NCBI RefSeq assembly: GCF_026586625.1
Contig: NZ_JAODIW010000004.1
Coordinates: 62,001-126,000 of the forward strand
DNA from: Halobium salinum
Lineage (GTDB): Archaea > Halobacteriota > Halobacteria > Halobacteriales > Haloferacaceae
DNA length: 64,000 nucleotides
Reading direction: 5' to 3'
A model generated the notes under the pieces. It did not search any database, was not told the origin of the DNA, and saw nothing but the letters and a program-made list of their open reading frames with translations. Positions within the stretch are counted from its first letter, which is position 1, and every line of letters starts with the position of its first letter. Position numbers and translations under genes: made by a program. This document shows positions 1-58,702 of the stretch, in pieces.

Positions 1-974
1 CCGGCGCCGAGCCGGGACCGGCCTGCTACGGCCGCGGCGGCACCGACCCGACCGTGACGGACGCGAACGTCGTCCTCGGCTATATCGGCGAGAGCACGGC
101 GCTCGGCGGGGAACTCTCCCTCGACGCCGAGGCGGCCCGCGACGCCCTGTCGGGACTCGCCGACGAGGCCGACCTCGACGGGCCAGTCGAGGCCGCTCGC
201 GGCGTCTACCGCATCGCCAACGCGAACATGACGCGGGCGATTCGCGCCATCACGGTCGAGCGCGGCCACGACCCGCGACGGTTCGCCCTCGTCGCCTTTG
301 GCGGCGCGGGGCCGATGCACGCCGCCGCGCTCGCGGACGACCTCGACGTCGACACCGTGGTCGTCCCCCGCGCCTGTGGGGTGCTCTCCGCGTACGGCCT
401 GCTCTCGGCCGACGAGAAACACGACGCGGTGAAGACCCTGCGGACGCCCGTCGCCGACCTCGACGACGGCGTCGTCGCCGACGCCTTCGACAGCCTCGCC
501 GACGACGTGCTCGCGGACTGTTCGGACCCCGAGGCCGCCTCGGTCGAGCGCGCGATGGACCTCCGGTACGTCGGCCAGTCGTTCGAACTGACGGTCCCCG
601 TCTCGCTGCCGTTCGACCCCGAGGCCGTCACCGCGGCGTTCCACGACGCCCACGAGTCGGCGTACGGCTACCGGATGGACGACGCCGTCGAACTCGTCAA
701 CGTGCGCGCCACGGCGGTCGTCGAGCGCGACCCGGTCGACGTGCGCTACGAGGGTGGGACGGACCCCCAGAAGGACACCCGCGAGGCGAACTTCGGCGGC
801 GAGTACCACGACACGCCCGTGTACGTCCGCGAGCGGGTCCCTCTCGGGACCACACTGTCCGGGCCCGCGGTGTTCGAAGGTGACGAGTCCACCGTCGTGG
901 TGCCCCCGGCGTGGGACGCCGAGGTCGACGAGCGCGGGACGCTCGTGCTGACGCGGGGAGGTGACGGGAAGTGA
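1..974 (+). CDS. hyuA: Hydantoinase/oxoprolinase subunit A, C-terminal part (cut by window edge)
   Basis: This is the ATP-dependent hydantoinase/5-oxoprolinase A subunit, which opens cyclic amides such as hydantoins or 5-oxoproline together with HyuB. The frame is already open at base 3 and reads GAEPGPACYGRGGTDPTVTDAN, the conserved family block, so the start lies upstream of the window; the GTG at 54 is internal. About 323 residues are visible, roughly the last half of a ~660-residue protein, including the block FGGAGPMHA. The stop codon overlaps the hyuB start by four bases (971-974), so the two are translationally coupled. Substrate specificity cannot be read from the sequence. Confidence 0.93.
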   Translation, partial: GAEPGPACYGRGGTDPTVTDANVVLGYIGESTALGGELSLDAEAARDALSGLADEADLDGPVEAARGVYRIANANMTRAIRAITVERGHDPRRFALVAFGGAGPMHAAALADDLDVDTVVVPRACGVLSAYGLLSADEKHDAVKTLRTPVADLDDGVVADAFDSLADDVLADCSDPEAASVERAMDLRYVGQSFELTVPVSLPFDPEAVTAAFHDAHESAYGYRMDDAVELVNVRATAVVERDPVDVRYEGGTDPQKDTREANFGGEYHDTPVYVRERVPLGTTLSGPAVFEGDESTVVVPPAWDAEVDERGTLVLTRGGDGK

Positions 975-2572
975 GTGAAGAAATCGACGCCGTCACCCTC
1001 GAAATCATGCGCAACCAGTTCGAGAGCGTCGCCGAGGAGATGGGGCAGGTGCTCGTCACGAGCGCCTACTCGCCGAACATCAAGGAGCGACGGGACTGCT
1101 CGACCGCGCTGTTCGACGCCGACGGCCGACTCGTCGCGCAGGCCGAACACATCCCGGTCCACCTCGGCGCCATGCCGGAGGCGGTCGACGCCGTGCTCGA
1201 CCGGGACCCGGAGCCGGGCGACGTGTTCGTCCTCAACGACCCGTTCGAGGGCGGCACGCACCTCCCGGACGTGACGATGGTCTCCCCCGTCGCTCCCGAC
1301 GGAGAGGTACTGGGATACGCCGTCTCCCGTGCTCACCACGCCGACGTGGGCGGGATGGCCCCGGGGAGCATGCCGGCGGGGGCGCGCGAAATTTTCCAGG
1401 AGGGCCTCCGGCTTCCCCCGACCAGACTCGTCGCCGGCGGCGACCCCGTCGACGACGTGATGAACCTCCTGCTCGCGAACGTCCGCAACCCGAGCGAGCG
1501 CCGGGCGGACCTCCGAGCCCAGATAGCGGCCAACGACCGCGCCGAGGAACGCGTCGGCGACCTCGTCGCCGACCACGGGGAAGAGAGAGTGCTCGCGGCG
1601 TTCGACGCCGTGATGGACTACTCCCGCGAGCGCGTGACGAGCGAACTCCGGGAGTTGCCGGGCGGCGAGTTCGCCGCCCGCGACGTGCTGGAGGGCGACG
1701 GTGTGACCGACGACGACGTGCCCATCGAGGCCACCGTCACGGTCGACGGCGACACCCTGACCGTGGACTTCGCGGGCACCGCCGACCAGGTCGCCGGCAA
1801 CGTGAACGCCCCGCTCGCGGTCGCCAAGAGCGCGGTGTACTTCGTCGTGCGCTGTGTGACGGACCCCGAGATACCCCCGAACGCGGGCTGTTACGCCCCC
1901 ATCGACGTGCGGGTGCCGGAGGGCTCCCTGCTCAACCCGAACCCGCCGGCCGCCGTCGTCGGCGGCAACGTCGAGACCAGCCAGCGCGTCACCGACGTGA
2001 CCTTCGAGGCGCTGGCCGAAGCCGCCCCGGAGAGAGTACCGGCCCGCGGACAGGGGACGATGAACAACCTGATTATCGGCTCCAGCGGCGCCGACTCCTT
2101 CGCCTACTACGAGACCATCGGCGGCGGCGACGGCGGCCGGCCCTCCGGCGACGGGATGGACGGCGTCCACGTCGGCATGACGAACACGCTGAACACGCCC
2201 GTCGAGGCGCTCGAGGCGGAGTACCCGCTCTCGGTCGAGGAGTACGGCCTCCGGCCGGGGAGCGGCGGCGACGGCCGGTATCGGGGTGGACTCGGCATGG
2301 TTCGTTCGGTGACGGTCGAGACCGACGCCACCGTCTCCCTGCTCACGGAGCGCCGACGCCACGCCCCACCGGGTGCGGCCGGCGGCGAGGACGGCGCCGT
2401 GGGTCGGAACCTCGTCGACGGCGAAGCCGTGCCGGCGAAGACGACCCGGGAGGTGGCGGCGGGGACGACCGTCCGGGTAGAGACGCCCGGCGGCGGCGGG
2501 TGGGGTGACCCCGCCGAGCGCGACGAAGAGGTGCGGGCGGCCGACCGTGAGGACGGGAAGGTCGAGGAGTAG
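971..2572 (+). CDS. hyuB: Hydantoinase B/oxoprolinase family protein
   Basis: The 533-residue partner of HyuA, forming the hydantoinase/oxoprolinase hydrolase. Family landmarks are the N-terminal [45 protein letters not shown], the [17 protein letters not shown] metal/active-site block, and a C-terminal [11 protein letters not shown] signature. The start is GTG at 971, giving a GTGA overlap with hyuA. Length is normal for HyuB. Nothing in the following 300 bases looks like a third subunit or a dedicated transporter, so the substrate (hydantoin, oxoproline or another lactam) is open. Confidence 0.93.
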
Positions 2573-2953: not shown

Positions 2954-4639
2954 TCACTCCTGTTCTTTGACCGGTGATACGTCGAACTGCTTTCTGAACT
3001 GCTGGACTGCTTCGTCCGAACCGACCAGGACGATGCGTTCGTCGCCGGTGAACCGCCGTTGTGGGTCGATCGTACTACTGAATCCGGACTCGTCTTCGAC
3101 GGCGATCACGCGGCACCCCGTCTTCTCGTAGATCCCCGACTCTGCGAGGGTCGACCCGGCCAGCGGCTCCGCCGGCACGCGAAGGAGCCGAACCTGACTC
3201 GCCGGAGTCAGGATGTCCTCACCGCGGAGCTCTCTCGCGACCATCCGAGCGCTCACTCGCGGGACCGAGAGGACGTAGTCGGCGCCGGCGCTCAATGCCT
3301 TCCGCGTCGCGTCGGTATCGCTCAGTCGGACCAGTATCTCGATATCGGGGTTTAGCGAGCGTGCCAACACCGTCGTGAGGAGCGATTCGGAGTCGTTCGG
3401 AAGCCCGACGATGATCGCTCCGGCAGTCTCGATTCCGGCTGCTTCGAGGGTTTCCTCCGACCCCGCGTCACCGACGACGTCGACACCGTCGCGGTCTCTG
3501 ACGTCGATCGTCGTGACGTCGAGCCCCTCCTCGACGACGACCTCTCGTGCGGCTTGCCCAACCTCGCCCTGTCCGGCAACGATGATACGGTCGTGGCGAC
3601 GGAGCGTTCGGGACGGCTGTGTGAACTCACTGAACGCCTCCAGCGCCTCGTGGGGTCCCGAGAGGAGTAACACCGTGTTCGAGCGGATAACCGCGTCCGG
3701 ATGGGGTGGAAGCTGCAGTTCACCGTCGATCCACGCACCGATGATGTTAGCACCCGTCTCCTCTCTGATTCGTGAGTTGCGTATCCGTGTTCCGACTAAT
3801 CTGTTCCCGTGCTGAATCGGAATCTCCGTGATCTCTAACTCTCCGCCGAGCTCGATAGTGTCCGTCAGGTCCGTGCTGAACGACGAGACCACCTTCTCGG
3901 CGAGTCGATGTCCGAGCACCCCGTGTGGGGACAACACGGTGTTTGCACCCGCATCCAACAGCGCACTTCGCATACTGCTGTCGTCGGTGAGTGCGATGAT
4001 GTCGAGATGGCGGTCTATCGACCGCACCGTCAGAATGGTGTTCACGTTCGCATCACCGGTATCGGTGATGACTGCCCGAGCGGTGTCGATACTCGCCCGC
4101 TCGAACGCTCCCCGGTCCTGCGGAGAGCCGTGAATGACCGAGTAGCCCGCGTCGGAGAGGTCCTTGGCGTTCTCTTCGTCCGAGGAAATCAGGACGTACT
4201 CGATCCCGAGTTCTTCGAGTTCGTCGAGAAGTACGGCCGAGTCACGTCGGTACTCACAGATGATGACGTGGTCCTGCTTCGGCGTGAGTCGGTCGTCCAA
4301 GTTGACCTCGGCCCCGGTGAACAAGGGGATGATGATGAGTCGGAGGGTGAAAAACCCGATTCCGATGCCGGAAATCTGCGCGAACGACACGAACAGGAAC
4401 ATCAGCGGATGGCTCCAGAGGCCGGAGTCCTGCCCGTAGCCGGTCGTCGTCATCGTTTGGACGATGAACTCGAACGAGGCGAAGATAGACTGGTCGACGC
4501 CTTCCAACCGCGCCAGCGCGACGTTGTAGATTACGGCATACAAGCTGACGAGAGCCGTCAGGCCGACGAGATAGTAGATGATGAGTCGGTTCCGGCGGGA
4601 GAACTCGATTGCGGAGAGCTGCCGTGAAAAGAATCCCAT
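2954..4639 (-). CDS. Potassium channel with two RCK (TrkA-N/TrkA-C) units
   Basis: A 561-residue K+ channel. Two membrane helices (about 19-41 and 78-106) flank a pore loop carrying the selectivity filter TTTGYG at 64-69. Two tandem cytoplasmic RCK modules follow: a first TrkA-N domain (about 118-240) with TrkA-C, and a second NAD-binding fold starting near IIVAGQGEVGQAA with a second TrkA-C to the end. Such MthK/Kch-like channels gate K+ flow in response to nucleotides or ions, which matters in a salt-in halophile. The second RCK keeps a GxGxxG-like GQGEVG, while the first reads CEYRRD and is degenerate. A TAGGT-AC-ACCTA palindrome lies directly in front of the start. Confidence 0.92.
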   Translation of the reverse strand: MGFFSRQLSAIEFSRRNRLIIYYLVGLTALVSLYAVIYNVALARLEGVDQSIFASFEFIVQTMTTTGYGQDSGLWSHPLMFLFVSFAQISGIGIGFFTLRLIIIPLFTGAEVNLDDRLTPKQDHVIICEYRRDSAVLLDELEELGIEYVLISSDEENAKDLSDAGYSVIHGSPQDRGAFERASIDTARAVITDTGDANVNTILTVRSIDRHLDIIALTDDSSMRSALLDAGANTVLSPHGVLGHRLAEKVVSSFSTDLTDTIELGGELEITEIPIQHGNRLVGTRIRNSRIREETGANIIGAWIDGELQLPPHPDAVIRSNTVLLLSGPHEALEAFSEFTQPSRTLRRHDRIIVAGQGEVGQAAREVVVEEGLDVTTIDVRDRDGVDVVGDAGSEETLEAAGIETAGAIIVGLPNDSESLLTTVLARSLNPDIEILVRLSDTDATRKALSAGADYVLSVPRVSARMVARELRGEDILTPASQVRLLRVPAEPLAGSTLAESGIYEKTGCRVIAVEDESGFSSTIDPQRRFTGDERIVLVGSDEAVQQFRKQFDVSPVKEQE

Positions 4640-4763: not shown

Positions 4764-5606
4764 TTACGTCTCCGGCGACTCCATCACCTGCGGGACGCCC
4801 CCGGCGGTGACCGTCTCGCCGACGACGTACGACGAGGCGGGGCTGGCGAGGAACTGCGCCACGTCGGCGATCTCCTGGCTCGTGCCGACCCGGCGGTCGA
4901 CGTCCGTCCGGTCGATGTCGCTCGCGGAGACGCCCATCTGGGACTCGACGCCGGGAGTGGCGACGAAGCCGGGCGCGATGCAGTTGACGCGGATGCCGTG
5001 GCGGGACCACTCGGCGGCGAGCGTCGTGGTGAGGTTGATGATGCCGGCCTTCGCCGCGCCGTAGTGACTCATGTACGGGGAACCCTGCTGGCCGGCGACG
5101 CTGGAGAGGTTGACGATACTCCCGCCGCCGTCGCCTCGCATCGCCTCGCCGGCGGCCTGCGAGCAGTGGTAGGTGCCGGTGAGGTTGCTGTCGACGATGG
5201 TGTGCCAACCGTTCTCGGAGATGTCCTCGAACTGGGCCATGAACGACGCGCCGGCGTTGTTGACCAGCGTGTCGACGCCGCCGAACTCCTCGACGGTGGC
5301 CTCGACGAGCGCGTCGACGGCGTCGCGCTCCCGCACGTCGCACTCGACGGCGATTGCGCTCCCCGGCACCGCGTCGACGTCGGTCGCGCCGTCGTTCGTG
5401 AGACCCTCGGGCGTCCCGCTGAACTCTCCGACGTTCCCCTCGTTGATGGCCTCGGCGACGGGGTCGACGTTCTCCTGCTCGCGCGAGCAGACGACGACGT
5501 TCGCGCCGTCGGCCGCGAAGCGCTCCGCGATGGCGCGGCCGATGCCGCTCGAGGAGCCGGTGACGACGACGGTCTGGTCCCTGACGCTGAACTGGTCTGT
5601 CGGCAT
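4764..5606 (-). CDS. SDR-family oxidoreductase
   Basis: A 280-residue short-chain dehydrogenase/reductase. The cofactor motif TGSSSGIG is at 16-23, NNAG at 116-119, and the catalytic Ser-Tyr-Lys set includes Ser168/169, Tyr182 and Lys186 (YGAAK). It is longer than a classical SDR because of an acidic insertion at about 52-82, between strand B and the conserved acidic cofactor strand. It most resembles 3-oxoacyl-ACP reductase/glucose dehydrogenase-type SDRs. It is transcribed in the same direction as the acyl-CoA dehydrogenase upstream (178-bp gap). By context it may handle hydroxy- or keto-acyl-CoA, but the substrate is inferred only. Confidence 0.9.
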   Translation of the reverse strand: MPTDQFSVRDQTVVVTGSSSGIGRAIAERFAADGANVVVCSREQENVDPVAEAINEGNVGEFSGTPEGLTNDGATDVDAVPGSAIAVECDVRERDAVDALVEATVEEFGGVDTLVNNAGASFMAQFEDISENGWHTIVDSNLTGTYHCSQAAGEAMRGDGGGSIVNLSSVAGQQGSPYMSHYGAAKAGIINLTTTLAAEWSRHGIRVNCIAPGFVATPGVESQMGVSASDIDRTDVDRRVGTSQEIADVAQFLASPASSYVVGETVTAGGVPQVMESPET

Positions 5607-5784
5607 ACGATGGTCGTGGGGTGGTATCGTGATAAGTGGGGGAGGCCCGCTGGTGGGAGAGGTACGGTGTCAGGAGGCCGGCGGGGGTTGTATACGGAAG
5701 GTGCCCGGCCCGTGCCAAACGGTCGGCCGTCGCGTCTCGCGCTCTACACGCCGAGGGTACGTGTCAGATGGACGTCGTTGTGAT

Positions 5785-7005
5785 TCACTCCCCGCCCCGA
5801 TACCGCGTGATGCCCTCGATGGCTCCTTCGTCCACGTCGGAGAAGGCGTCGCGGGCGACGACCCGCCGGTGGACCTCGTCGGCGCCGTCGACGATGCGGA
5901 ACTGTCGAACCGCCGCGTAGAAGTCGGCGAGCGGGAGGTCCTTGCCGATGCCGTTGGCGCCGCAGTACTGCAGGGCCGTGTCGATGGCGTCGTTGGTCAC
6001 CTCGGCGGCGAACAGCTTCGCCATCGACACCGGGACGCGGGCCTCCTCGTCGCGAGCGATTCTGTCGGCCGCGTCTCGAACTACGGTCCGAACCGCGTGG
6101 AGGCGCGTCTCCGCGTCGGCGATTTCGTGGCGGAGGCTCGACTTCTCCGAGAGCGACGAGCCGAACGCCTCGCGCTCGGAGGCGTACGCCTTCGCGACCT
6201 CGAGGGCGCGGTCGGCCATCCCGGAGAAGCGCATGCAGTGGGTGAGCCGCGCCGGACCGAGGCGCTGCTGGGCGTGCGCGAACCCGCGGTTCTCCTCGCC
6301 GAGCAGGGCGGTGTCGGGGACGCGCACCCGGTCGTAGACGATTTCGGCGTGGCCGATGCCGGTCACGCCGTCGGCGAGGTGTGGTACGTCGCGCTCGATT
6401 TCGACGCCGTCGGCGTCAGCGGGGACCAGAAAGAGCGAACAGCCCTCGTAGGGGTGGGCGTCCGGGTCGGTGCGGGCCATCACGACGAGCACGTCGGCCT
6501 CGCTCCCGCCGGTCGTCCACCACTTGTGGCCGTCTACGACCCACTCGTCGCCCTCCTGCCTCGCGCGCGTGCGCATCATCTTCGGGTCCGACCCGGCGCC
6601 CTGGAGCGGTTCGGTCATCGAGAACCCCGAACTGGTCTCGCCGGCGACGAGGTCCGGGAGCCAGCGCTCCTGCTGCTCGTCGGTGCCGACGAGTTCCAAC
6701 AGGTGCATGTTCCCCTCGTCCGGGGCGTCGACGCGGAGCGCGGCGGGGCCGAGCAGGCTCCGGCCCGCCGCCTCGAAGGCGGGGAGCACGTCGTCGAACG
6801 CCATCCCGAGGCCACCCCACGCCTCGCTCACCTGCGGGGCGTAGAGGTCGCGCTCCCTCGCCTCGGCGCGGAGGTCGGCCACCGTCCCGTCGTCGGCCGG
6901 GCCGTCGCCGAGGTGCTCGCGTTCGACGGGAATCACGACCTCGTCGACGAACGTCCGGACGCGGTCGGCGAACTCGCGGGCTTCCGCCGAGTCGTGGTAC
7001 TCCAT
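5785..7005 (-). CDS. Acyl-CoA dehydrogenase, ACAD10/11-like
   Basis: A 406-residue FAD-dependent acyl-CoA dehydrogenase. It shows the N-terminal helical domain, the FAD/substrate block SSGFSMTEPLQGAGSDPKMM and the C-terminal helical domain with QYCGANGI. At the usual catalytic YEGT position it reads RIVDGADEVHRR (about 370-381), with Asp where medium-chain enzymes have Glu; this D-G-x-D-E-V-H form is typical of the ACAD10/11 subgroup. In humans that subgroup is fused to an APH-type kinase, and a stand-alone APH-type kinase lies nearby at 8239-9381. The SDR at 4764-5606 follows on the same strand. The subgroup assignment rests on this motif and context. Confidence 0.9.
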   Translation of the reverse strand: MEYHDSAEAREFADRVRTFVDEVVIPVEREHLGDGPADDGTVADLRAEARERDLYAPQVSEAWGGLGMAFDDVLPAFEAAGRSLLGPAALRVDAPDEGNMHLLELVGTDEQQERWLPDLVAGETSSGFSMTEPLQGAGSDPKMMRTRARQEGDEWVVDGHKWWTTGGSEADVLVVMARTDPDAHPYEGCSLFLVPADADGVEIERDVPHLADGVTGIGHAEIVYDRVRVPDTALLGEENRGFAHAQQRLGPARLTHCMRFSGMADRALEVAKAYASEREAFGSSLSEKSSLRHEIADAETRLHAVRTVVRDAADRIARDEEARVPVSMAKLFAAEVTNDAIDTALQYCGANGIGKDLPLADFYAAVRQFRIVDGADEVHRRVVARDAFSDVDEGAIEGITRYRGGE

Positions 7006-7114
7006 GACGGGCCATGGGCCGTGGGGGTGAAAGGTGTACGGCAGGCGGAAGGGTTCCGAGACCGGACGGGTCAGACGAGACGCCTTCGCCGGGAGCGACT
7101 CGGACGGGCCTTCG

Positions 7115-8137
7115 TCACTGCACCGCTCTTCGCGCTCGTCTCTGCTCGGATTCCGTCTCGAGTTGGGCCTGCTCCCAGGCGAGGTACTCGCGTAGCCCGT
7201 CCTCCAGCGGCCGGTGTTCGAGACCGAGTTCCCGTTTCGCCTTCGCGTTGTCCACCTGGAACTGCTTACCGGCGAAGAACTCCAGCATCTCGGACTCGTA
7301 CCCCTCGGGCGGCGTCACGACCCGCTCGACGACTCGCATGGCGTTCGCGAGCGCCCCGAACACCGCGTCCGGAACGGGCCGGGGTGCCCGAATCCCGGTG
7401 ATTCGCTCGGCGCAGTCGAACACCTCGGGGAGCGTTCGCGGCTCGCTCGCGACGATGTACTCCTCGCCTGGGGTCCCCACCTCCATCGCGAGGACGTGCG
7501 CCCGTGCGATGTCTCCGACGAAGTCGAACGGAATCGTGAAACGCTTCGGTACCATCGGGAGGTCGCCGGTGAGGTAGCTCCGAAAGGCGCTGCGCGCCGA
7601 CCCGTACAGTTTGTCGCCCGGACCGTACACGGCGCCGGGCATGACGACGACCAGCGGTAGCCCCTCGTCCATCATCGGTCTCGCGACCTCGTAGTGCGCC
7701 TGCCACTTCGTTCGGAAGTAGACCGCGGCCGTCGGTTCGTCCGGAGTGACGGTCTCGTCGAGGCGGGCGCCGCTCGTCCCCGGAAAGACGCCGACGGTGC
7801 TCGTGTAGACGCCCTTCGGCACGTCCAGTTCGTCCATCAGCTCGAGGACGTTGCGCGTCCCCTCGACGTTGATTCGTTCGGCAGTGTCGACGTTCTTGGG
7901 GCCCGGACCGACGTAGAACCACGCCGCGATGTGGAACACGCCGTCGACCCCCCGCATCGCCTCGCGCATCTGTTCCTTCTCGGCGATGTCACCCTCGACG
8001 ACTCGTACTGCGTCCGGGAGATGGTCCGCGTTCGACCGGAAGCGCGTCAGGGCGACGACCTCGTGGCCCGCATCGAGCAGTTCTCCCACGACGTGGGTGC
8101 CGACGAGCCCCGTGGCGCCGGTGACGAAGTACTCCAT
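7115..8137 (-). CDS. NAD-dependent epimerase/dehydratase family protein
   Basis: A 340-residue extended SDR when started at the ATG at 8137 (MEYFVTGATGLVGTHVVGEL). An ATG nine codons upstream (8164) is in frame, but it would add residues lacking any fold feature and would absorb a palindrome that looks regulatory. The Rossmann motif TGATGLVG is at the extreme N-terminus. The usual Tyr-x3-Lys appears as YFRTK in the centre (AVYFRTKWQAHYE). It resembles dihydroflavonol-4-reductase/hopanoid-associated sugar epimerase-type proteins. It lies between the acyl-CoA dehydrogenase and the divergent APH-type kinase, so a hydroxyacyl or sugar substrate are both possible. Confidence 0.85.
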   Translation of the reverse strand: MEYFVTGATGLVGTHVVGELLDAGHEVVALTRFRSNADHLPDAVRVVEGDIAEKEQMREAMRGVDGVFHIAAWFYVGPGPKNVDTAERINVEGTRNVLELMDELDVPKGVYTSTVGVFPGTSGARLDETVTPDEPTAAVYFRTKWQAHYEVARPMMDEGLPLVVVMPGAVYGPGDKLYGSARSAFRSYLTGDLPMVPKRFTIPFDFVGDIARAHVLAMEVGTPGEEYIVASEPRTLPEVFDCAERITGIRAPRPVPDAVFGALANAMRVVERVVTPPEGYESEMLEFFAGKQFQVDNAKAKRELGLEHRPLEDGLREYLAWEQAQLETESEQRRARRAVQ

Positions 8138-8139
8138 AG

Positions 8140-8158
8140 TATGTTTATTGTTAACATA
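8140..8158. promoter_or_regulatory. Inverted repeat in the divergent promoter region
   Basis: TATGTT and AACATA form perfect 6-base arms separated by seven bases, ending two bases before the ATG at 8137. The segment is AT-rich in a GC-rich neighbourhood and sits between the divergent epimerase and APH-type kinase genes. It fits an operator or promoter overlap at a leaderless start. Confidence 0.4.
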
Positions 8159-8238
8159 GCACATTTACCTTCGGAGTAGGGCGGAAGTGAGCACGGTCGA
8201 CCCCGACCTATTCGTAACCGCCCCTCCACGGTACGACC

Positions 8239-9381
8239 ATGGCCCCCGAGGACACACCCCGCGACGACGGAACCGACCGGGAGGTCTCCGGCTACCTCGC
8301 GCGACTCGTCGACCCCGACCGCCTCCGTGCGTACCTCGCAACCCAACTCGATGCCGTCGACGACGAGGGCGGCGACGACGCCGGCACCGCGGCCGGCGCG
8401 AACCCTTTCTCCGTCGAACGCTTCGGCGAGGGACACTCGAACGAGACGCTGCTCGTCAGTTGGGGCGGGCGCGAACTGGTCGTCCGCCGTCCGCCGCCGG
8501 GCGAGACCGCCGAACGCGCCCACGACGTGCTCCGCGAGTACCGGGTGATGGACGCGCTTCAGGACACGCCGGTGCCGGTGCCGCGGACCCTGTTAGCCTG
8601 CGAGGACGACGCCGTCCTCGGCGCCGAGTTCTACGTGATGGAGCGTGTCGCCGGCGACGTACTCCGGTCCGAGGAGCCGGAACGGCTCACGACGCCGGAC
8701 CACCGCGAGCGACTCGGGGAGGGGCTGGTCGACGCGCTGGCGGCGATACACGCCGTCGACCCCGCCGCGGTCGGGCTGGAGGAGTTCGGCTACCCCGACG
8801 GGTTCACCGAGCGGCAGGTCCGGCGCTGGGGCGAACAGTTGACGTGGGCGTTCGACCGCACGGCCGAGGAGCGCGAGGTTCCCGCCCTGTACGACACCCT
8901 GTCGTGGCTCACCGACAACGTCCCGAGCGACCCGCCGTCGGGGCTGGTCCACGGCGACTTCAAGCTCGACAACGTAGTCGTCGCCCCCGGCACGCCGCCG
9001 GAGGTCGCCGCGGTGCTCGACTGGGAGCTGTCGACGCTCGGCGACCCGCTGACGGACCTCGGTTGGTTCCTCGCCCACTGGCGCGACCCCGGCGACCCGC
9101 CCGCGATTTCGGAGCTCGACCCGACGTTCACCGAGCGCGAGGGGTATTCGACCCGACGCCAGTTGGTCGAACGCTACGAGGCGGCGACGGGCATCGAGTA
9201 CGAACACGACCGCTTCTACCGGACGCTCGCCGTCTTCAAGCTCGCGGCGCTGGGTGAGATGTTCTTCCGGCGCCATCTGGAGGGGAACGCGGACGACGAC
9301 CTCTATCCGCAGATGCGCGAGGGGGTCCCGGCGCTCGGCGAGCGGGCGACGCGAATCATCGACGGCGACGAGCCGTTGTAA
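8239..9381 (+). CDS. APH-family phosphotransferase (ACAD10/11-type kinase)
   Basis: A 380-residue kinase-like protein of the aminoglycoside phosphotransferase fold. The catalytic loop HGDFKLDN is at 238-245 and the metal-binding DWELSTLGDPLTDLGW at 261-276; GEGHSNET (63-70) is the nucleotide loop. The DWELSTLGDPLTDLGW form is the version found in the kinase domains of ACAD10/11 and in bacterial LvaA-like proteins, which phosphorylate 4-hydroxyacyl-CoA before the acyl-CoA dehydrogenase partner removes phosphate (established for those families). An ACAD10/11-like dehydrogenase is encoded at 5785-7005. An antibiotic-modifying role is unlikely from this motif and context. Confidence 0.9.
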   Translation: MAPEDTPRDDGTDREVSGYLARLVDPDRLRAYLATQLDAVDDEGGDDAGTAAGANPFSVERFGEGHSNETLLVSWGGRELVVRRPPPGETAERAHDVLREYRVMDALQDTPVPVPRTLLACEDDAVLGAEFYVMERVAGDVLRSEEPERLTTPDHRERLGEGLVDALAAIHAVDPAAVGLEEFGYPDGFTERQVRRWGEQLTWAFDRTAEEREVPALYDTLSWLTDNVPSDPPSGLVHGDFKLDNVVVAPGTPPEVAAVLDWELSTLGDPLTDLGWFLAHWRDPGDPPAISELDPTFTEREGYSTRRQLVERYEAATGIEYEHDRFYRTLAVFKLAALGEMFFRRHLEGNADDDLYPQMREGVPALGERATRIIDGDEPL

Positions 9382-10179: not shown

Positions 10180-11430
10180 ATGCGCCAGATGAAGGAACGC
10201 CGGGGAGTCGCGGACAGGGGGAACGGAGACGACCGAATATGCGTCCTGCTCGTCGACGACGACACCGCGCTGGTCGAACTCACCCGGAGTTACCTCGAGC
10301 GGGTCGAACCACGCATCGAGGCCGTGGAAGCCACGTCCGGTCCCGCGGGGTTGGCGGTGCTCGACGAGCGGGGGTCGGAGGCGACGCGACCGCCCGTCGA
10401 CTGCGTCGTCAGCGACTACGACATGGGTGAGATGAACGGGCTCGACTTCCTCCGGGCCGTCCGCGAGCGCGAACCCGACCTCCCGTTCGTGCTGTTCACC
10501 GGGAAGGGGAGCGAGGAGATAGCCAGCGAGGCCATCTCGGCCGGCGTCACCGACTACCTCCAGAAGGAGACGGGCCGGGACCAGTACACGGTGCTCGCGA
10601 ACCGCGTCGTCAACGCCGTCGAACACGCCCGGAGCGAGCGCGCCCATCGCGAGACCGAGGAACGCTACCGGACCGTCGTCGAAGGGAGCCACGACGCCAT
10701 CTACATCTACCAGGGGGAACGTTTCCGGTTCGTCAACGAGCGCGCGTGCGAGATAACCGGGTACGAGAGGGAGGAGCTGTACGAGATGGGGGTGTTCGAC
10801 CTGGTTCACCCGGACGACCGCGAGCGCGTCAGGAACATCGGCAGACGCCGTACCAGCGACGGGACGGCACCGTCGCAGTACTCCGCGCGTGTTCTCCGCA
10901 AGGACGGCGACGTGCGTCACTGCGAGTTCAGCGTCTCGACGGTGACGTATCGGGGCGAGCCGGCCGTCCTCGGCTCCGTCCGCGACGCGACCGCGGAACG
11001 ACGGGCGCGCGAGCGGTTCCGCGCGCTCATCGAACACTCGATGGACATCTTCACCGTCCTCGACGAGAGCGGAGAGATAACCTACGAGAGCCCGTCCGCC
11101 GAGCGCGTCCTCGGGTGGAGCGACGGCGCCCTCGTGGGCGACAACGTCTTCGAGTACATCCACGAAGACGACCGACAGGAGGCGTTCGAGACGTTCACCA
11201 GCGTCATCGACGAACCCGGGTTCGTCACCGACCGGATGACGCTCCGCTTCCGGCACGCGGACGGCTCGTGGCGCTGGCTCGAAGCCGTCGGGAGCAACCG
11301 GACCGACACGAGCATCGGCGGCTACGTCATCACCTCCCGGGACGTGACCGAGCGGGTCGAGAACGAGCGGGCCGGGAACGACCGAGTCGGGGACGAACGG
11401 GGCGAGGACGGACGCGGCGACGGGGGCTAA
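10180..11430 (+). CDS. Response regulator receiver with two PAS domains
   Basis: A 416-residue signalling protein. The receiver domain (about 19-135) has the acidic pair in VLLVDDD, the phospho-acceptor Asp79 (SDYDM) and the Lys of FTGKGSEE. Two PAS domains follow, at about 150-270 and 275-390. The second is PAS_3-like with its PAC segment (RHADGSWRWLEAVGSN). After the PAS repeats there is only a short Asp/Glu/Arg/Gly tail: no histidine kinase, GAF-HTH or other output domain. Haloarchaeal relatives usually continue into a kinase or HTH-10 domain, so this one may act as a sensor/adaptor or be naturally shortened. Its stop overlaps the convergent sirtuin stop. Confidence 0.88.
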   Translation: MRQMKERRGVADRGNGDDRICVLLVDDDTALVELTRSYLERVEPRIEAVEATSGPAGLAVLDERGSEATRPPVDCVVSDYDMGEMNGLDFLRAVREREPDLPFVLFTGKGSEEIASEAISAGVTDYLQKETGRDQYTVLANRVVNAVEHARSERAHRETEERYRTVVEGSHDAIYIYQGERFRFVNERACEITGYEREELYEMGVFDLVHPDDRERVRNIGRRRTSDGTAPSQYSARVLRKDGDVRHCEFSVSTVTYRGEPAVLGSVRDATAERRARERFRALIEHSMDIFTVLDESGEITYESPSAERVLGWSDGALVGDNVFEYIHEDDRQEAFETFTSVIDEPGFVTDRMTLRFRHADGSWRWLEAVGSNRTDTSIGGYVITSRDVTERVENERAGNDRVGDERGEDGRGDGG

Positions 11431-12173
11431 ACGACGGTGTCCGCGAGCGCCGGGAGGAGGTCGGTCACGTCCTCGCGGAACACGTAGTCGGCGTGGCGGT
11501 CGGCGGGCGTCTCCTCGCGGTTGAGTACGGCGAGCGTACCGTTCTGGGCCGCGGTCGTCGGCAACGACGCGGCCGGTTCGACCGTGAGCGACGAGCCGAT
11601 GGCGAGGAACACGTCGCTCTCGCGGGCGAGCCGCGAGGCCTCGGCCATCTCGTCTTCGGGGAGTGACTCGCCGAACAGCACCACGTCGGGTTTCAGGAGT
11701 CCGCCGCAGTCACAGTGCGGCGGGTTGTCGCCGTCGCGGACCCGCGCCCGCGCCGCGGCCGCGTCGGAGCGTTCGCCGCAGTCGAGACAGACCACGCGCG
11801 AGTTGTTGCCGTGGAGTTCGACGACGCGTCGGGAGCCGGCGGCGAGGTGGAGTCCGTCCGTATTCTGGGTGACGACCGCCGAGAGGCGGCCGGCCGACTC
11901 CATCGCCGTGAGCGCCTCGTGGGCCGGATTCGGCGCGGCGTCGTCGGGGTACATCGCCTCGTGGAGGGCGAGGCGGTCGGTCCAGAACCCGGCCGGCTTC
12001 GACAGCAGGCGGCCGTAGCTGAAGTCGTTCGGGTGGAACTGGGTCTTCCAGACGCCGTCCTCGCCGCGGAAGGAGGGGATTCCCGAGGCGGTGCTGACGC
12101 CCGCGCCGGTGAACGCGACGACCGTGTTGGCCGCGCGCACCTCGTCGGCGAGTGAGGCGAGTCGCTCGTCCAT
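11427..12173 (-). CDS. cobB: Sir2 family NAD-dependent protein deacylase
   Basis: A 248-residue sirtuin, starting MDERLASLADEVRAAN at 12173; nine codons further upstream are open but unlike the family. NAD-binding GAGVSTASGIPSFR is at 23-36, TQNTDGLH at 102-109, and the catalytic His121 lies in VELHG. The zinc ligands are Cys129, Cys132, Cys154 and Cys156 (CLDC and CDC); the second pair is spaced by one rather than two residues, as in some haloarchaeal members. GSSLTVEPA and the C-terminal LNRE complete the NAD site. Expected to remove acyl groups from lysines on cytosolic proteins. Confidence 0.93.
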   Translation of the reverse strand: MDERLASLADEVRAANTVVAFTGAGVSTASGIPSFRGEDGVWKTQFHPNDFSYGRLLSKPAGFWTDRLALHEAMYPDDAAPNPAHEALTAMESAGRLSAVVTQNTDGLHLAAGSRRVVELHGNNSRVVCLDCGERSDAAAARARVRDGDNPPHCDCGGLLKPDVVLFGESLPEDEMAEASRLARESDVFLAIGSSLTVEPAASLPTTAAQNGTLAVLNREETPADRHADYVFREDVTDLLPALADTVV

Positions 12174-12591
12174 ACCGCCTGTGGAGGGCGCTGTGAGCAA
12201 AAGTCGTGTGGCGCTCGCGTCACTCTCGGTGCTCGTCGGTGGGAGCCGTCGTCAGGCGGTCGTCCTTCGCCAGTGCCGGTCTCAGCTCCCGCGTCCACCC
12301 GGGGGGGACGTGAGTCGTGCTTTCGGCCGCGGCGTCGCGGAGCCCATCGTCCGGACCATCTCGGCGTAGTCGGCGCAGGGACTCTTTGTGCGGGGTCGGG
12401 CCATCGTGGAACATGTCACGTCGTACACCTACCTGTATGTTGCGGCCACTCTCACCGACGAAGTATTTCCTCACGCGTGTGAGCATATCGGTCACTGTTC
12501 TCACCGGAACGTCCCGACGCGTACGCGGAGCGTCCCGAGCGTCCCAGCCGCGTCCACAACGCTTAGCCCGCAGCGCACCGCAGGGGGAACC
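12174..12591. other. 418-base divergent intergenic region
   Basis: Lower in GC than its flanks. It contains an inverted repeat CTCAC-GCGT-GTGAG at 12470-12483 and presumably the divergent sirtuin and MBL-hydrolase promoters. A minus-strand frame from 12504 (GTG) or 12486 (ATG) to 12220 could encode an 88-94-residue basic protein, but its third-position GC (about 72%) is well below neighbouring genes and no motif is seen. I do not call it a gene. Confidence 0.4.
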
Positions 12592-53705: not shown

Positions 53706-54914
53706 ATGAGAGACACGTACCTCGTGGGCGCCGGTCAGTCCGACTACGGCGCGTTCCCCGAGGAGAGCTACCGGTCCCTCTTTCGCACGGCGTACGAGGC
53801 GACCGTCGAGAGTGCGGGCGGCGTCGACGCCGACGACGTGGACGAGGCCTACGTCGGCACGCTCGGCGTCGGTGGCCGCCAACTCGGCCTATCGGGTCCA
53901 GCCGTCACCGAGCACGTCGGCCTGCGCGGCGTCCCCTGCACGCGAGTCGAGAACGCGTGTGCGGCGTCGGGGTACGCCATCCGACAGGCCGTGATGGCCG
54001 TCCGGTCGGGGATGGCCGACCTCGTCCTCGCCGGCGGGTTCGAGGTGATGACCGACAGCTCCTCGGAGGCGACGAAGTACTGGCTCGGCGTCAGCGGCGA
54101 GACGGCGTGGGAGCGCATGTCCGGGACGACGTTCGCCGGCGTGTACGCCCAGATGGCCGACGCCTACATGCGCGAGTACGGCGTCGAGCGCGAGTCCCTC
54201 TCGCGGGTGGCCGTCAAGAACCACGCGAACGGCGCGAAGAACCCTCAGGCGCAGTTGGGGTTCACCTGCACCGTCGAAGACGCCGAGTCGGCGCCCGCCG
54301 TCTCGGACCCGCTCACCCTATATCACTGCTGTCCGACCAGCGACGGCGCCGCCGCGGTGCTCGTCGCCAGCGAGGACGCCGCTCGGTCGTTCGACGAGCG
54401 AATCAGAGTCGCCGGCGTCGGCGCCGCCAGCGACCGGGTCGGCCTCTTCCAGCGGGACACCTACACCGGGGTTCCGGCCTCCACCGACGCGGCCGACGCG
54501 GCCTACGGCGCCGCCGGCGTCGGGCCCGCCGACCTCGACTTCGCGGAGGTCCACGACTGCTTCGCCATCGCCGAACTGCTCGCCTACGAGGACCTCGGGT
54601 TCGCCGAGCGCGGCGACGGCGCCCGGCTCGTCGACGAGGGCGTCACCGACCTCGACGGCGCGCTCCCGGTCAACACCTCCGGCGGCCTGAAGTCGAAGGG
54701 CCACCCCATCGGCGCGACCGGCGCCGGGCAGGCCGTCGAGGCGTGGAAACAGCTCACCGGCGACGCGGGCGAGCGCCAACTCGACGACCCGAAACGCGGG
54801 CTCACGCACAACGTCGGCGGGAGCGGCGGCGCCGCGGTCGTCCACGTCTTCGAACGGGAGGACGCCCCCGAGCCACGGGGTGCCGGCGCCGGTCGCGGGG
54901 AGGTGGGCCGATGA
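53706..54914 (+). CDS. Thiolase (archaeal/SCP2-like acetyl-CoA acyltransferase)
   Basis: A 402-residue thiolase. The nucleophilic Cys85 is in VENACAASG; EVHDCFAIAEL and SKGHPIGATGAGQAVE carry the other catalytic residues. At the position of the second catalytic Cys of bacterial thiolases it reads HNVGGSGG, the archaeal/SCP2-type form. A short acidic extension ends the protein. It overlaps the HMGS-like/DUF35 gene by four bases (ATGA), recalling archaeal thiolase-HMGS-DUF35 complexes that pass acetoacetyl-CoA between subunits. Confidence 0.92.
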   Translation: MRDTYLVGAGQSDYGAFPEESYRSLFRTAYEATVESAGGVDADDVDEAYVGTLGVGGRQLGLSGPAVTEHVGLRGVPCTRVENACAASGYAIRQAVMAVRSGMADLVLAGGFEVMTDSSSEATKYWLGVSGETAWERMSGTTFAGVYAQMADAYMREYGVERESLSRVAVKNHANGAKNPQAQLGFTCTVEDAESAPAVSDPLTLYHCCPTSDGAAAVLVASEDAARSFDERIRVAGVGAASDRVGLFQRDTYTGVPASTDAADAAYGAAGVGPADLDFAEVHDCFAIAELLAYEDLGFAERGDGARLVDEGVTDLDGALPVNTSGGLKSKGHPIGATGAGQAVEAWKQLTGDAGERQLDDPKRGLTHNVGGSGGAAVVHVFEREDAPEPRGAGAGRGEVGR

Positions 54915-56419
54915 GCGACGGGTCGCCGACGGACGGGAGCGGGGCGCCGAGGGTCGGCATCGCCGGTGCGGCCGCCTCCGTCCCCCGTGCCCGCATCGGC
55001 GCCGACGCGGTTCGGGAGGCCTGGGGTCGGTTCCAAGCGTCGGGCGTGCAGTCGAAGGCGGTCGCCGGCGCCGACGAGGACAGCCTCACGATGGCCGCCG
55101 AGGCCGCCCGCCGCGCCCTCGACGCCGCCGGCGTCGACGCGGAGCGCGTCTCCTGCCTGACGTTCGGCACGTCGACACCGCCGCTCGAAGAGGAGGACCC
55201 GACGCCCAGACTGGGTGCGTTCCTGGGCGTCCCGTCCGGGGCGTCCCGTCGCTACCTCTCGGGGTCGACGCGGGCCGGGACGAGCGCGCTCGCCGCGGCG
55301 CTCGACCGCGCGAACGGCGTGGGGAACGAACGCGTTCCCGACACCCTCCCGGCGCTCGTCGTCGCCGCCGACCGCCCGCGAGGGGAGCCGTCGAGCCCCG
55401 AGGACCACGCCGCCGGTGCCGGCGCGGCCGCGCTCGTCCTGACCGCCGACGGCCCAGCGACGGTCGGGGACCGCGCCGAGTACGCCGTCGACTACCCCGG
55501 AACCCGCTTCCGGGAGGCCGGGAGCGAGCGCGTCGAGGGGCTCGGCGTCTCGGCGTACGACCGACGGGCGTTCGTCGAGACGGTTCGGGGGGCCGTTTCG
55601 AACCTCGGCACCGACCTCGCCCACGCCGACGCGCTCGCGCTACAGGCGCCGGACGGGAAGCTCCCCTACCGCGCCGCGGCGGCACTCGGAGCCGACGCGG
55701 ACCTGGTGAGCGAAGTCACGCCCGTCCACGACCTCGGCGACCTCGGGGCGGCGAGCCCGCTGTTCGCGCTCGTCCGAGCCCTCGACGCGGGTCGCGAGCG
55801 CGTCGTCGTCGTCGGGTACGGGTCGGGCGCCGGCGCCGACGCCTTCGAGGTCGTCGTCGACCCCGACGGGGGAGCGCCGCCGACGGACCGCGCAGGCGAC
55901 TCCGGCGAAGACGTGAGCTACGCAGAGTACCTCCGGCTTCGCGGCGAGATTACGGACGGTCCGCCCGCCGGCGGCGGCGCGGCCGTCTCGGTCCCCTCGT
56001 GGCGCCGCAGCCGCGAAGCGCGCTACCGGCTCGTCGCCGGCGCCTGCCCGGACTGTAGTGCGCTCGCGTTCCCGCCGGAGGGGGCGTGTCCCGACTGCGG
56101 CTCGCTCGCCGAGTTCGAGCCGGTCGAACTCCCGAAGCAGGGGGTGGTCGAGGCCGTGACGACCGTCTCGCCCGGCGGCGCTCCGCCGGAGTTCGTCCCC
56201 CAGGCCGAGCGCGGCGGCGCGTTCGGCGTCGCCATCGTCGCCTTCGAGCGCGAGGCGGACGGCGAGGGTGGTGCCGGTTCGGCGAGCGTCCCGCTACAGG
56301 CGACCGACTGCGACCCGGCGGAGCTCGACGCGGGCGACGAGGTGGAGGCCGTAGTTCGACGAATCTACACACAGGAGGGCGTCACGCGCTACGGGCGGAA
56401 GGTGCGGCCGGTCGAGTAG
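54911..56419 (+). CDS. HMG-CoA synthase-like domain fused to DUF35 zinc ribbon/OB fold
   Basis: A 502-residue fusion. Residues 12-315 are a thiolase-fold HMG-CoA synthase-like domain and about 360-500 a DUF35 unit with zinc ribbon Cys379, Cys382, Cys393 and Cys396, then an OB fold. Compared with archaeal HMGS all three catalytic residues appear replaced. The Cys of ACKAGT is Thr120 (GSTRAGT), the His of HQPNxKxP is Gln245 (LQAPDGKLP), and the Glu region reads FGTSTPP. This predicts loss of condensing activity. It is coupled to the thiolase, so it may be a structural DUF35-bearing partner bridging CoA transfer. The frame is open far upstream, but only from 54911 does it match the family. Confidence 0.85.
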   Translation: MSDGSPTDGSGAPRVGIAGAAASVPRARIGADAVREAWGRFQASGVQSKAVAGADEDSLTMAAEAARRALDAAGVDAERVSCLTFGTSTPPLEEEDPTPRLGAFLGVPSGASRRYLSGSTRAGTSALAAALDRANGVGNERVPDTLPALVVAADRPRGEPSSPEDHAAGAGAAALVLTADGPATVGDRAEYAVDYPGTRFREAGSERVEGLGVSAYDRRAFVETVRGAVSNLGTDLAHADALALQAPDGKLPYRAAAALGADADLVSEVTPVHDLGDLGAASPLFALVRALDAGRERVVVVGYGSGAGADAFEVVVDPDGGAPPTDRAGDSGEDVSYAEYLRLRGEITDGPPAGGGAAVSVPSWRRSREARYRLVAGACPDCSALAFPPEGACPDCGSLAEFEPVELPKQGVVEAVTTVSPGGAPPEFVPQAERGGAFGVAIVAFEREADGEGGAGSASVPLQATDCDPAELDAGDEVEAVVRRIYTQEGVTRYGRKVRPVE

Positions 56420-56446
56420 ACGAGCGAGCGTGCGTTCCGTGCCGAG

Positions 56447-56797
56447 TCACTGCGTCTCCTCCGTTCGCTCCCCCCGCTCCATATCCTCCGCGAGAGTCAC
56501 CAGCGCCTCGAACTCCGGGGGGGTGCCGAGCAGTCGCACGACCCCGGCGTCCGGGTCGTACTCGACGAACTCCGCCTCGGCGGCCCTCGGCAGCTGGACG
56601 TGCTGAAGGTTTATCGTGACGTTCGCGACCGACTCCTCGCCGACCGTCTCGTCCTCGTCCGCCTCTATCTCCGCGACCCGTTCGGCCAAATTCTCGACAC
56701 GAATCCGATTCGGCGTGTCCCCGTCCGTGAGGAGATACAGAACGTATCGCCGCCGCTCGTCGCTCAGCAGTTCCAACACGTCGTCGACGGAGGCCAT
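56447..56797 (-). CDS. DUF7344-like winged-helix protein
   Basis: A 116-residue protein starting MASVDDVLELLSDERRRYVLYLL at 56797. This opening and the ENLAERVAEIEADEDETVGEESVANVTINLQHVQLPRAAEAEFVEYDPDAGVVRLLG continuation match the small haloarchaeal winged-helix regulators in which a conserved SDERRRYVLYLL helix begins the domain. It probably binds DNA. Targets unknown. Confidence 0.75.
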   Translation of the reverse strand: MASVDDVLELLSDERRRYVLYLLTDGDTPNRIRVENLAERVAEIEADEDETVGEESVANVTINLQHVQLPRAAEAEFVEYDPDAGVVRLLGTPPEFEALVTLAEDMERGERTEETQ

Positions 56798-56883
56798 ATC
56801 AGTCAATAGTGTCTTCCTGATACTTAGTTGCACTCGCCTACGTGTTGGCGATAAGTCACCTTCCGCTCGCGACGGGCCGCGAG

Positions 56884-57285
56884 TCAGAACGCGTCGAGCG
56901 ACTCCCCGCGCTCGAAGGCGAGCAGGCGGCGCTTCGCGTCGACCCCGGCCGCGGCGGAGAAGCCGCCGAGGCCGTCGGCGGCGACGACGCGGTGACAGGG
57001 GACGACGACCGGGAGCGGGTTGCGTCCGCAGGCGCCGCCGACCGGCTGTGCGGCGGTGTCGAGTTCGGCGGCTATCTCGCCGTAGGTTCGCGTCTCGCCG
57101 TAGGGAATCTCGACCATCGCGCGCATCACCTCGCCGGTCAGCCCCGCCGGGAACGAGACCGGGAGGTCGAACGCGCGGCGCTCGCCCCGCTCGTACTCGG
57201 CGACCTGCGTCCGGACCGCCTCGGGGGACGCATCGAGCAGGTCGCAGTCGAGGTCGTACTCGTCGCCGCGGACGGAGAGGCGCAT
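56884..57285 (-). CDS. ogt: Methylated-DNA-protein cysteine methyltransferase
   Basis: A 133-residue O6-alkylguanine repair protein. The acceptor Cys is in VVVPCHRVVAADGLGGF; RAMVEIPYGETRTYGEIA is the helix-turn-helix with the arginine finger. The N-terminal domain is short. It transfers the alkyl group irreversibly to itself. Full set of family motifs. Confidence 0.93.
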   Translation of the reverse strand: MRLSVRGDEYDLDCDLLDASPEAVRTQVAEYERGERRAFDLPVSFPAGLTGEVMRAMVEIPYGETRTYGEIAAELDTAAQPVGGACGRNPLPVVVPCHRVVAADGLGGFSAAAGVDAKRRLLAFERGESLDAF

Positions 57286-57355
57286 CTCGTCCGGAAGGAC
57301 GGCGTCGGGACGACAAGAAGGGTTCGGACCGCCGGCGGCGGTCCGTCGACGGCCG

Positions 57356-57592
57356 CTACGGCTTCCAGTCGAGTTTGATGGTGACCGACTCGCGGCTCCC
57401 GCGCAGCACCGAGGAGCGCTCGCGGACGTTGATTTCGTACCCCACGCTCGACTTGGGGTGGAGTCGCACCCGCTTGTTGCCGGCCTGTACGTCCACGTCG
57501 CCCTCTTTCAGCAGTTCGTCGGCGAGCGCCTGGAGTCGGGCCGCCGCCTCCTCGCGCGTGAGCTTCTCCTCGTGGTACGTCTTGTCAGCCAT
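57356..57592 (-). CDS. Amphi-Trp domain protein
   Basis: A 78-residue protein starting MADKTYHEEKLTREEAAARL at 57592. The amphi-Trp domain pattern shows an N-terminal helix (LTREEAAARLQALADELLKEGDV) and strands ending KLDWKP. Function of this domain is unknown; it is common as a small stand-alone protein in haloarchaea. The frame is open far upstream without support. Confidence 0.8.
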   Translation of the reverse strand: MADKTYHEEKLTREEAAARLQALADELLKEGDVDVQAGNKRVRLHPKSSVGYEINVRERSSVLRGSRESVTIKLDWKP

Positions 57593-57787
57593 AACGACGC
57601 GTACGGTCGGTCGCGCCGTAATCGTGTGGGTAGCGGTGACAGCTCCCGTCTCGGGCGACGACGGTCCGGCCGAACGACGGCGGGCCGGCGGGGTCGGTGG
57701 GTCGACGGGTCGGCGTAGGTGGGTGCGGTCGGCGTAGGGCCGCCGGGAAGGGAACCGCTTAACCGCCCGGCGGGCGGCGCGTCGTTC

Positions 57788-58702
57788 ATGAACGTCTGTG
57801 TACTTGGCGCGGGGACGATGGGTCACGGCATCGCGCAGGTGAGCGCGATGGCGGGCCACGAGGTGCGCCTGCGGGACGTGGAGGAGGACCTCGTCGAGGA
57901 CGGACTGGCGGGAATCCGCGAGAACCTCGACGGCGGCGTCGAGCGGGGGAAGGTCACCGAGGCGGAGCGAGAGGCGACCCTCTCGCGAATCGCGGGGACG
58001 ACCGACCTCGAGCGAGCCGCGGCCGACGCGGACCTCGTCGTCGAGGCGGTGCCGGAGGACGCAGAGCTCAAGCGGCGGGTGCTCTCGGAGGTCGCCGCCG
58101 TCGCCCCCGCGGACGCCGTGCTCGCCTCGAACACCTCCTCGCTGTCGGTGACGGGCATCGCGAGCGCCCTCGACGACCCCGCCCGGTTCGTCGGTCTCCA
58201 CTTCTTCAACCCGGTCCACATCATGGGGCTGGTCGAGGTGGTCGTCGCCGAGCAGACGAGCGCGGAGACCGAAGCGTTCGCGGAGTCGTTCGTCGAGGAC
58301 GTCGGCAAGACCGCCGTCGTCGTGCAGGACTCGCCCGGCTTCGCCTCCTCGCGACTGGGCGTCTCGCTGGGCGTCGAGGCGATGCGGATGGTGCAGGAGG
58401 GCGTCGCGGACCCCCGCGACGTCGACGCCGCGATGGAACTCGGCTACAACCACCCGATGGGCCCCATCGAACTCGGCGACGTGGTCGGTCTCGACGTGCG
58501 CCTCGATATCCTCGAGCACCTCCGCGAGGAGCTGGGCGAACGGTTCCGACCCCCACAGAACCTCCGGCGGAAGGTTCGAGCGGGGAAGCTCGGGAAGAAG
58601 ACCGGCGAGGGGTTCTACGTCTGGGAGGACGGCGAGATAGTGGGCGTCTCGGGCGAGGTGGAGGCGGAAGGCGAGGAACGCCAGGAGGAGAGCCATGACT
58701 GA
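57788..58702 (+). CDS. 3-hydroxyacyl-CoA dehydrogenase
   Basis: A 304-residue NAD-dependent (S)-3-hydroxyacyl-CoA dehydrogenase starting MNVCVLGAGTMGHGIAQV. GAGTMG binds NAD, ASNTSSLSVTGIA follows, and FVGLHFFNPVHIMGLVEVV contains the catalytic His-Glu pair. The C-terminal domain has DSPGFASSRLG and YNHPMGPIELGDVVG. It overlaps the enoyl-CoA hydratase gene by eight bases, so consecutive beta-oxidation steps are co-translated. Confidence 0.95.
   Translation: MNVCVLGAGTMGHGIAQVSAMAGHEVRLRDVEEDLVEDGLAGIRENLDGGVERGKVTEAEREATLSRIAGTTDLERAAADADLVVEAVPEDAELKRRVLSEVAAVAPADAVLASNTSSLSVTGIASALDDPARFVGLHFFNPVHIMGLVEVVVAEQTSAETEAFAESFVEDVGKTAVVVQDSPGFASSRLGVSLGVEAMRMVQEGVADPRDVDAAMELGYNHPMGPIELGDVVGLDVRLDILEHLREELGERFRPPQNLRRKVRAGKLGKKTGEGFYVWEDGEIVGVSGEVEAEGEERQEESHD

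Follow-up and report, generated by a model that had tools for sequence, protein, structure and literature searches.

The window analyzed here, a stretch of 64,000 nucleotides from the haloarchaeon Halobium salinum (contig NZ_JAODIW010000004.1, positions 62,001 to 126,000), carries the genes of an APH-type kinase and an acyl-coenzyme A (CoA) dehydrogenase (ACAD), a combination for which phosphorylation followed by phosphate elimination has been proven in the bacterial enzymes LvaA and LvaC and in mammalian ACAD10 and ACAD11 (PMC12440821, PMC11342911). The kinase gene (8239-9381, plus strand; 380 amino acids; Pfam APH, 1.6e-50) encodes a predicted 4-hydroxyacyl-CoA kinase, and the LvaC/ACAD10-11-type ACAD gene (5785-7005, minus strand; 406 amino acids; Pfam Acyl-CoA_dh N, M, and 1) a predicted 4-phosphoacyl-CoA phosphate-eliminating enzyme. 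They are accompanied by two short-chain dehydrogenase (SDR) genes on the minus strand: SDR1 (4764-5606), a predicted 4-oxoacyl-CoA reductase/4-hydroxyacyl-CoA dehydrogenase in an LvaD-like role, and SDR2 (7115-8164, probable ATG start at 8137), an extended SDR (NAD-dependent epimerase/HpnA-like) located between the kinase and the ACAD. SDR2, ACAD, and SDR1 are co-directional, separated by gaps of 109 and 178 bp, and the kinase lies opposite. An original prediction made from the letters alone had described the locus as the two halves of an ACAD10/11-like system, encoded separately and 1.2 kb apart; all four genes were confirmed in place, with 1,233 bp between the divergent starts of kinase and ACAD, and the motifs it quoted, HGDFKLDN and DWELSTLGDP in the kinase and VDGADEVH in the ACAD, were all found. 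The roughly 100 bp between SDR2 and the kinase (8138-8238) include an AT-rich stretch (8140-8170) and, on a reading of the sequence, probably hold a two-way promoter.

Active-site residues and phylogeny of the pair

The 2025 structure of mouse ACAD11 assigns phosphate binding to the essential residues R626, H634, and R637, along with the HCMR motif, and makes D753, not the customary Glu, the catalytic base (PMC12440821). The strongest evidence for a corresponding function of the window ACAD is the motif RLGPARLTHCMR (6229-6264, minus strand), which the original prediction had not named: its R248, R253, H256, C257, and R259 correspond to mouse ACAD11 R626, R631, H634, C635, and R637, so that by analogy with the roles assigned in PMC12440821 it would form the phosphate-binding site. 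D373 in VDGADEVH (codon at 5887-5889, minus strand) corresponds to D753, whose role as given in the same paper makes it the predicted catalytic Asp; most ordinary ACADs compared have Glu there. When 72 ACADs were aligned, the combination R626/H634/M636/R637/D753 (ACAD11 numbering) proved invariant in 51 of 51 clade members and complete in 0 of 21 ordinary ACADs, and within the genome of H. salinum itself the ACAD10/11 fingerprint is found in 1 of 11 ACADs, the window ACAD alone. The nearest PDB matches of this protein are 4hr3 and mouse and human ACAD11.

A maximum-likelihood tree of the 72 proteins places the haloarchaeal ACADs in one clade (support 100/99), sister to a bacterial clade that includes LvaC of an annotated lva operon (99/93); together these join the ACAD10/11-like clade and are split from ordinary ACADs at 100/100. 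The phylogenetic check proposed for the dehydrogenase thus came out in favor of LvaC and ACAD10/11, and a placement with ordinary short-chain ACADs was not borne out. The window ACAD falls between LvaC and ACAD11, both from groups of measured chemistry. It shares 40% sequence identity with LvaC and 37% with mouse ACAD11. The LvaC reference was that of the lva operon on P. aeruginosa plasmid p12939-PER (L191), not of KT2440, and its identity to ACAD11 is 34%, well below the 56-62% given for P. putida LvaC and human ACAD10/11 (PMC11342911). A locus of P. putida GM4FR (L143) was dropped as an LvaC reference, as no kinase was found in the stretch examined. Its ACAD (5974-7203) is of the ACAD10/11-like type, and Pseudomonas and other bacteria have such ACADs with no kinase found in the stretch examined: of 80 loci, 44 yielded a kinase and none LvaB. 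Partner kinases of the kinase-less loci, if there are any, would be encoded elsewhere.

A second group of haloarchaeal ACAD paralogues, in which RLGGGRLTHCMR replaces RLGPARLTHCMR, was observed at three loci (L094, 10464-18957; L096, 2965-11656; L099, 6875-9735). In L094 and L096 the paralogue adjoins an ABC transporter, a luciferase-like monooxygenase, an enoyl-CoA hydratase, and a kinase of its own, and the group probably acts on a different substrate.

The best PDB matches of the window kinase are 9o56, 3dxp, and the kinase domain of mouse ACAD11 (8v3u/8v3v). The predicted catalytic residues D240, N245, and D261 are present, the first two being the equivalents of ACAD11 D220 and N225, and R192 corresponds to ACAD11 R176, an Arg position that contacts CoA. 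A further Arg, R99, stands beside the alpha-C Glu and aligns with an ACAD11 residue that is taken to be R86 of PMC12440821, although the numbering in that paper does not match the printed chain. Both Arg positions are kept in 29 of 29 haloarchaeal kinases and in all 13 kinases encoded beside ACAD10/11-like ACADs; LvaA, to which the window kinase is 28% identical, has Gln and Leu there. Phylogeny of the kinase, the other half of the proposed check, joined the haloarchaeal kinases to ACAD11-type kinases at 87/82, though an alternative tree joining them to LvaA-type kinases was not rejected (p-AU 0.298). The resemblance to the kinase of ACAD11 over LvaA is therefore suggestive and not statistically decisive, and a hybrid composed of an LvaC-type ACAD and an ACAD11-type kinase is likewise no more than suggested by these sequences. 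Such a hybrid would fit with the absence of LvaB from haloarchaea.

Co-inheritance and gene neighborhood across haloarchaea

Among 145 haloarchaeal genomes, a close relative of the window ACAD (at least 59% identity over full-length matches) occurs in 70, the kinase occurs in exactly the same 70, and either gene alone occurs in none (Fisher p = 3.7e-43, with species not independent), a pattern well beyond chance. Genera such as g2, g22, g26, and g30 of our sample contain both states, the two genes being present or missing together each time. Kinase and ACAD lie no more than 12 kb apart in 46 genomes, most commonly in a divergent arrangement with a gap of less than 400 bp (25 genomes). At E <= 1e-60 the kinase had no match in the non-haloarchaeal genomes of a 295-genome sample of the phylum.

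SDR1 is a conserved partner of the pair and belongs to the system: of the 70 genomes with the pair, 61 have it (E <= 1e-90), in 44 of them beside the kinase or ACAD and within 8 kb of the kinase, and it stays with the kinase in 24 of the 30 genomes in which over 8 kb separates ACAD from kinase. SDR1 also occurs in eight genomes that lack the pair and may thus serve other purposes too. Its TGSSSGIG, NNAG, and YxxxK motifs are intact, and its identity to LvaD (34%) is no higher than to other SDRs; because there is no specific kinship to LvaD, its putative role as a 4-oxoacyl-CoA reductase is deduced from position. SDR2, on the other hand, was rejected as a pathway member on the grounds of its rarity (relatives in 10 of 145 genomes) and its absence from the other clusters examined; given that those relatives are mostly in genomes without the pair, it is a bystander between the two genes. 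Of the proposal that both SDRs could supply redox steps, the part concerning SDR1 thus stands as a conserved member with a predicted role, and SDR2 falls outside the system.

The surroundings of the pair in 22 other haloarchaeal clusters point to beta-oxidation. Recurrent neighbors are a fusion of 3-hydroxyacyl-CoA dehydrogenase and enoyl-CoA hydratase (3HCDH-ECH), acyl-CoA ligases of two kinds, MaoC hydratases, enoyl-CoA hydratase, and an ordinary ACAD, besides an SDR, and overlapping sets of beta-oxidation genes are found on Haloferax mediterranei plasmid pHME132, in Haladaptatus salinisoli, and in archaeon DL31. Several relatives, L192 and L101 among them, have a ligase close by; in H. salinum, whose genome has ten AMP-ligase matches, the ligase is encoded elsewhere. 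The same genome has three strong 3HCDH genes, one of them, confirmed by profile, in the window (57719-58702, plus strand).

Other genes of the window and of related clusters are recorded here as observations. The 3HCDH gene forms part of a separate plus-strand block (53706-59525) of thiolase-like, DUF35/HMG-CoA-synthase-like, 3HCDH, and enoyl-CoA hydratase open reading frames (ORFs), in which the thiolase-like ORF (53706-54914) and the enoyl-CoA hydratase-like ORF adjoining 3HCDH (58695-59525) are named by sequence reading only. A gene for a Sir2-family deacylase is found not far from the pair (11427-12200, minus strand), and in two other haloarchaeal clusters such a gene stands directly beside the ACAD (L097, 5242-6051; L088, 5278-6090); a regulatory link or chance are both possible. 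In two further genomes an alpha/beta hydrolase adjoins the ACAD (L086, 6600-7439; L087, 8999-10045) and might open a lactone to a 4-hydroxy acid. At the beginning of the window lie a hydantoinase/oxoprolinase pair (54-2572, plus strand; B subunit Pfam 2.7e-209, with an A-like fragment upstream by reading) and, adjoining it, an ORF for a TrkA-type potassium channel (2954-4639).

A predicted route for 4-hydroxy acids and its alternatives

On the basis of gene content, residues, phylogeny, co-inheritance, and neighborhood, we propose that the pair is an archaeal system for dehydroxylation of 4-hydroxyacyl-CoA that feeds beta-oxidation, a reading to which we assign a probability of roughly 85%. 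An acyl-CoA ligase encoded at another place in the genome would activate a 4-hydroxy (or 4-oxo) acid as its CoA ester, and SDR1 would interconvert 4-oxoacyl-CoA and 4-hydroxyacyl-CoA. The kinase, with D240 as the catalytic Asp on the model of the ACAD11 residues, would phosphorylate the 4-hydroxyl, after which the ACAD would hold the phosphate by R248, H256, and R259 and, with D373 as the base, eliminate it in a flavin adenine dinucleotide (FAD)-dependent step without net oxidation to give 2-enoyl-CoA. Degradation would then be completed by a hydratase, 3-hydroxyacyl-CoA dehydrogenase, and thiolase. The suggestion that the locus might be a haloarchaeal cluster for degradation of 4-hydroxy acids is in this way supported, at the level of sequence comparison, by the tree, the residues, co-occurrence, synteny, and the beta-oxidation neighbors.

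Physiology in a carrier of the genes points in the same direction. H. mediterranei DSM 1411 grows on levulinic acid as a carbon source, at 0.097 per hour with 0.6 g/L (PMC12455835), and its plasmid pHME132, as recorded for strain ATCC 33500 (assumed identical to DSM 1411), has the kinase and ACAD together with SDR1 and genes of beta-oxidation. As LvaA and LvaC of P. putida degrade levulinate by way of 4-hydroxyvaleryl-CoA (PMC12440821, PMC11342911), growth of H. mediterranei on levulinate is what a 4-hydroxyacyl-CoA pathway predicts.

Several observations weigh against the proposed pathway. The identity of ACAD and kinase to the characterized members is modest, the two genes are unlinked in about a third of genomes, and no dedicated acyl-CoA ligase is encoded next to them here. 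LvaB (DUF6285), the bacterial kinase subunit and operon partner that adjoins LvaA-type kinases in Pseudomonas, Thermus, and Azospirillum, was found in none of the 145 haloarchaeal genomes, that of H. salinum included. The growth of H. mediterranei is a strain-level result, and the genes considered in that species are those of plasmid pHME132.

The alternative that survives best, a serious possibility that we would put a little short of even odds, retains the phosphorylate-and-eliminate chemistry and assigns it to a substrate other than a levulinate-type short 4-hydroxy acid, such as a longer or branched 4-hydroxyacyl-CoA, an acid derived from a lactone or from a terpenoid or sterol side chain, or a compound with its hydroxyl elsewhere. 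To our knowledge haloarchaea have no obvious source of 4-hydroxy acids in fatty-acid peroxidation, which speaks for such a substrate, as do the alpha/beta hydrolases adjoining the ACAD in two genomes and the GGGRL-THCMR paralogous pairs beside an ABC transporter, a luciferase-like monooxygenase, and an enoyl-CoA hydratase, which suggest that substrates have diversified. Against it, ACAD10 in cells used 4-hydroxyhexanoate but not 5- or 6-hydroxyhexanoate (PMC11342911), the active-site residues match, and H. mediterranei grows on levulinic acid (PMC12455835). More tentatively still, the haloarchaeal system may be an LvaB-independent hybrid of an LvaC-type ACAD and a kinase of the ACAD10/11 kind that acts on a halophile-specific 4-hydroxyacyl-CoA instead of levulinate-derived 4-hydroxyvaleryl-CoA; if true, this would be the first archaeal pathway dedicated to 4-hydroxy acids.

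We consider it unlikely that the pair serves to detoxify or salvage 4-hydroxyacyl-CoAs, relieving the trapping of CoA, and not to support growth. Though a patchy distribution, the lack of clustering in about a third of genomes, and the action of mammalian ACAD10/11 on minor lipids (PMC12440821) would suit that function, the acyl-CoA ligase, SDR, and 3HCDH-ECH genes nearby speak for a dedicated catabolic role, and a carrier grows on levulinate. Accidental proximity of an ordinary short-chain ACAD and an unrelated APH acting on an antibiotic or metabolite, conceivable for two large families whose members here lie 1.2 kb apart, divergent, and with the unrelated SDR2 between them, is highly improbable and was ruled out by the 70/70 co-occurrence and by a clade that excludes ordinary ACADs, with the fingerprint residues and the weak match to aminoglycoside phosphotransferase models also against it (the APH(3') family score is 37.6 bits, far short of the cut-off at 205, and an antibiotic-resistance APH was rejected).

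Returning to the proposed 4-hydroxyacyl-CoA dehydroxylation system, its chemistry had been assigned in one bacterial operon before the recent assignment to mammalian ACAD10/11 (2024-2025). Bacterial and human counterparts are known, and the pair is apparently unreported in archaea, no report of an archaeal case having been found in the literature searched. Of the haloarchaea sampled, about half have the kinase-ACAD pair, intact and never with one gene alone, and it offers a gene-level explanation for growth on levulinic acid of H. mediterranei, a producer of bioplastic. It would also provide a natural LvaB-free gene set for engineering the use of levulinate and gamma-lactones, and lends itself to direct testing by deletion of the genes in an archaeon amenable to genetics.

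Comparison with known systems

Loci of Georgenia (L102), Rhodococcus (L188), and Thermus (plasmid pTT27, L103) resemble the window in having adjacent SDR, ACAD, and phosphotransferase genes, but are arranged as co-directional operons; the Thermus locus encodes LvaB and an LvaA-type kinase, whereas the actinobacterial loci have an ACAD11-type kinase without LvaB. Mammalian ACAD10 and ACAD11 (PDB 8v3u, 8v3v, 2wbi) share with the window a kinase and an ACAD with equivalents of R626, H634, R637, and D753, and the kinase residues D220, N225, and R176 likewise have equivalents in the window kinase. In contrast to the separate genes found here, the mammalian enzymes are fused in a single polypeptide, and the window ACAD, 37% identical, falls outside the ACAD10/11-like clade. 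From the Pseudomonas lva operon (LvaA kinase, LvaB, LvaC ACAD, LvaD SDR, LvaE ligase) the haloarchaea differ in lacking LvaB/DUF6285 (0/145); the window further differs in a kinase that is 28% identical to LvaA and has the ACAD11-type Arg residues missing there, in its divergent gene order, in having no ligase beside the pair, and in an SDR1 that is not specifically related to LvaD. Both nevertheless encode kinase, ACAD, and SDR as separate genes, and the clade of the window ACAD is sister to LvaC, with the key residues identical.

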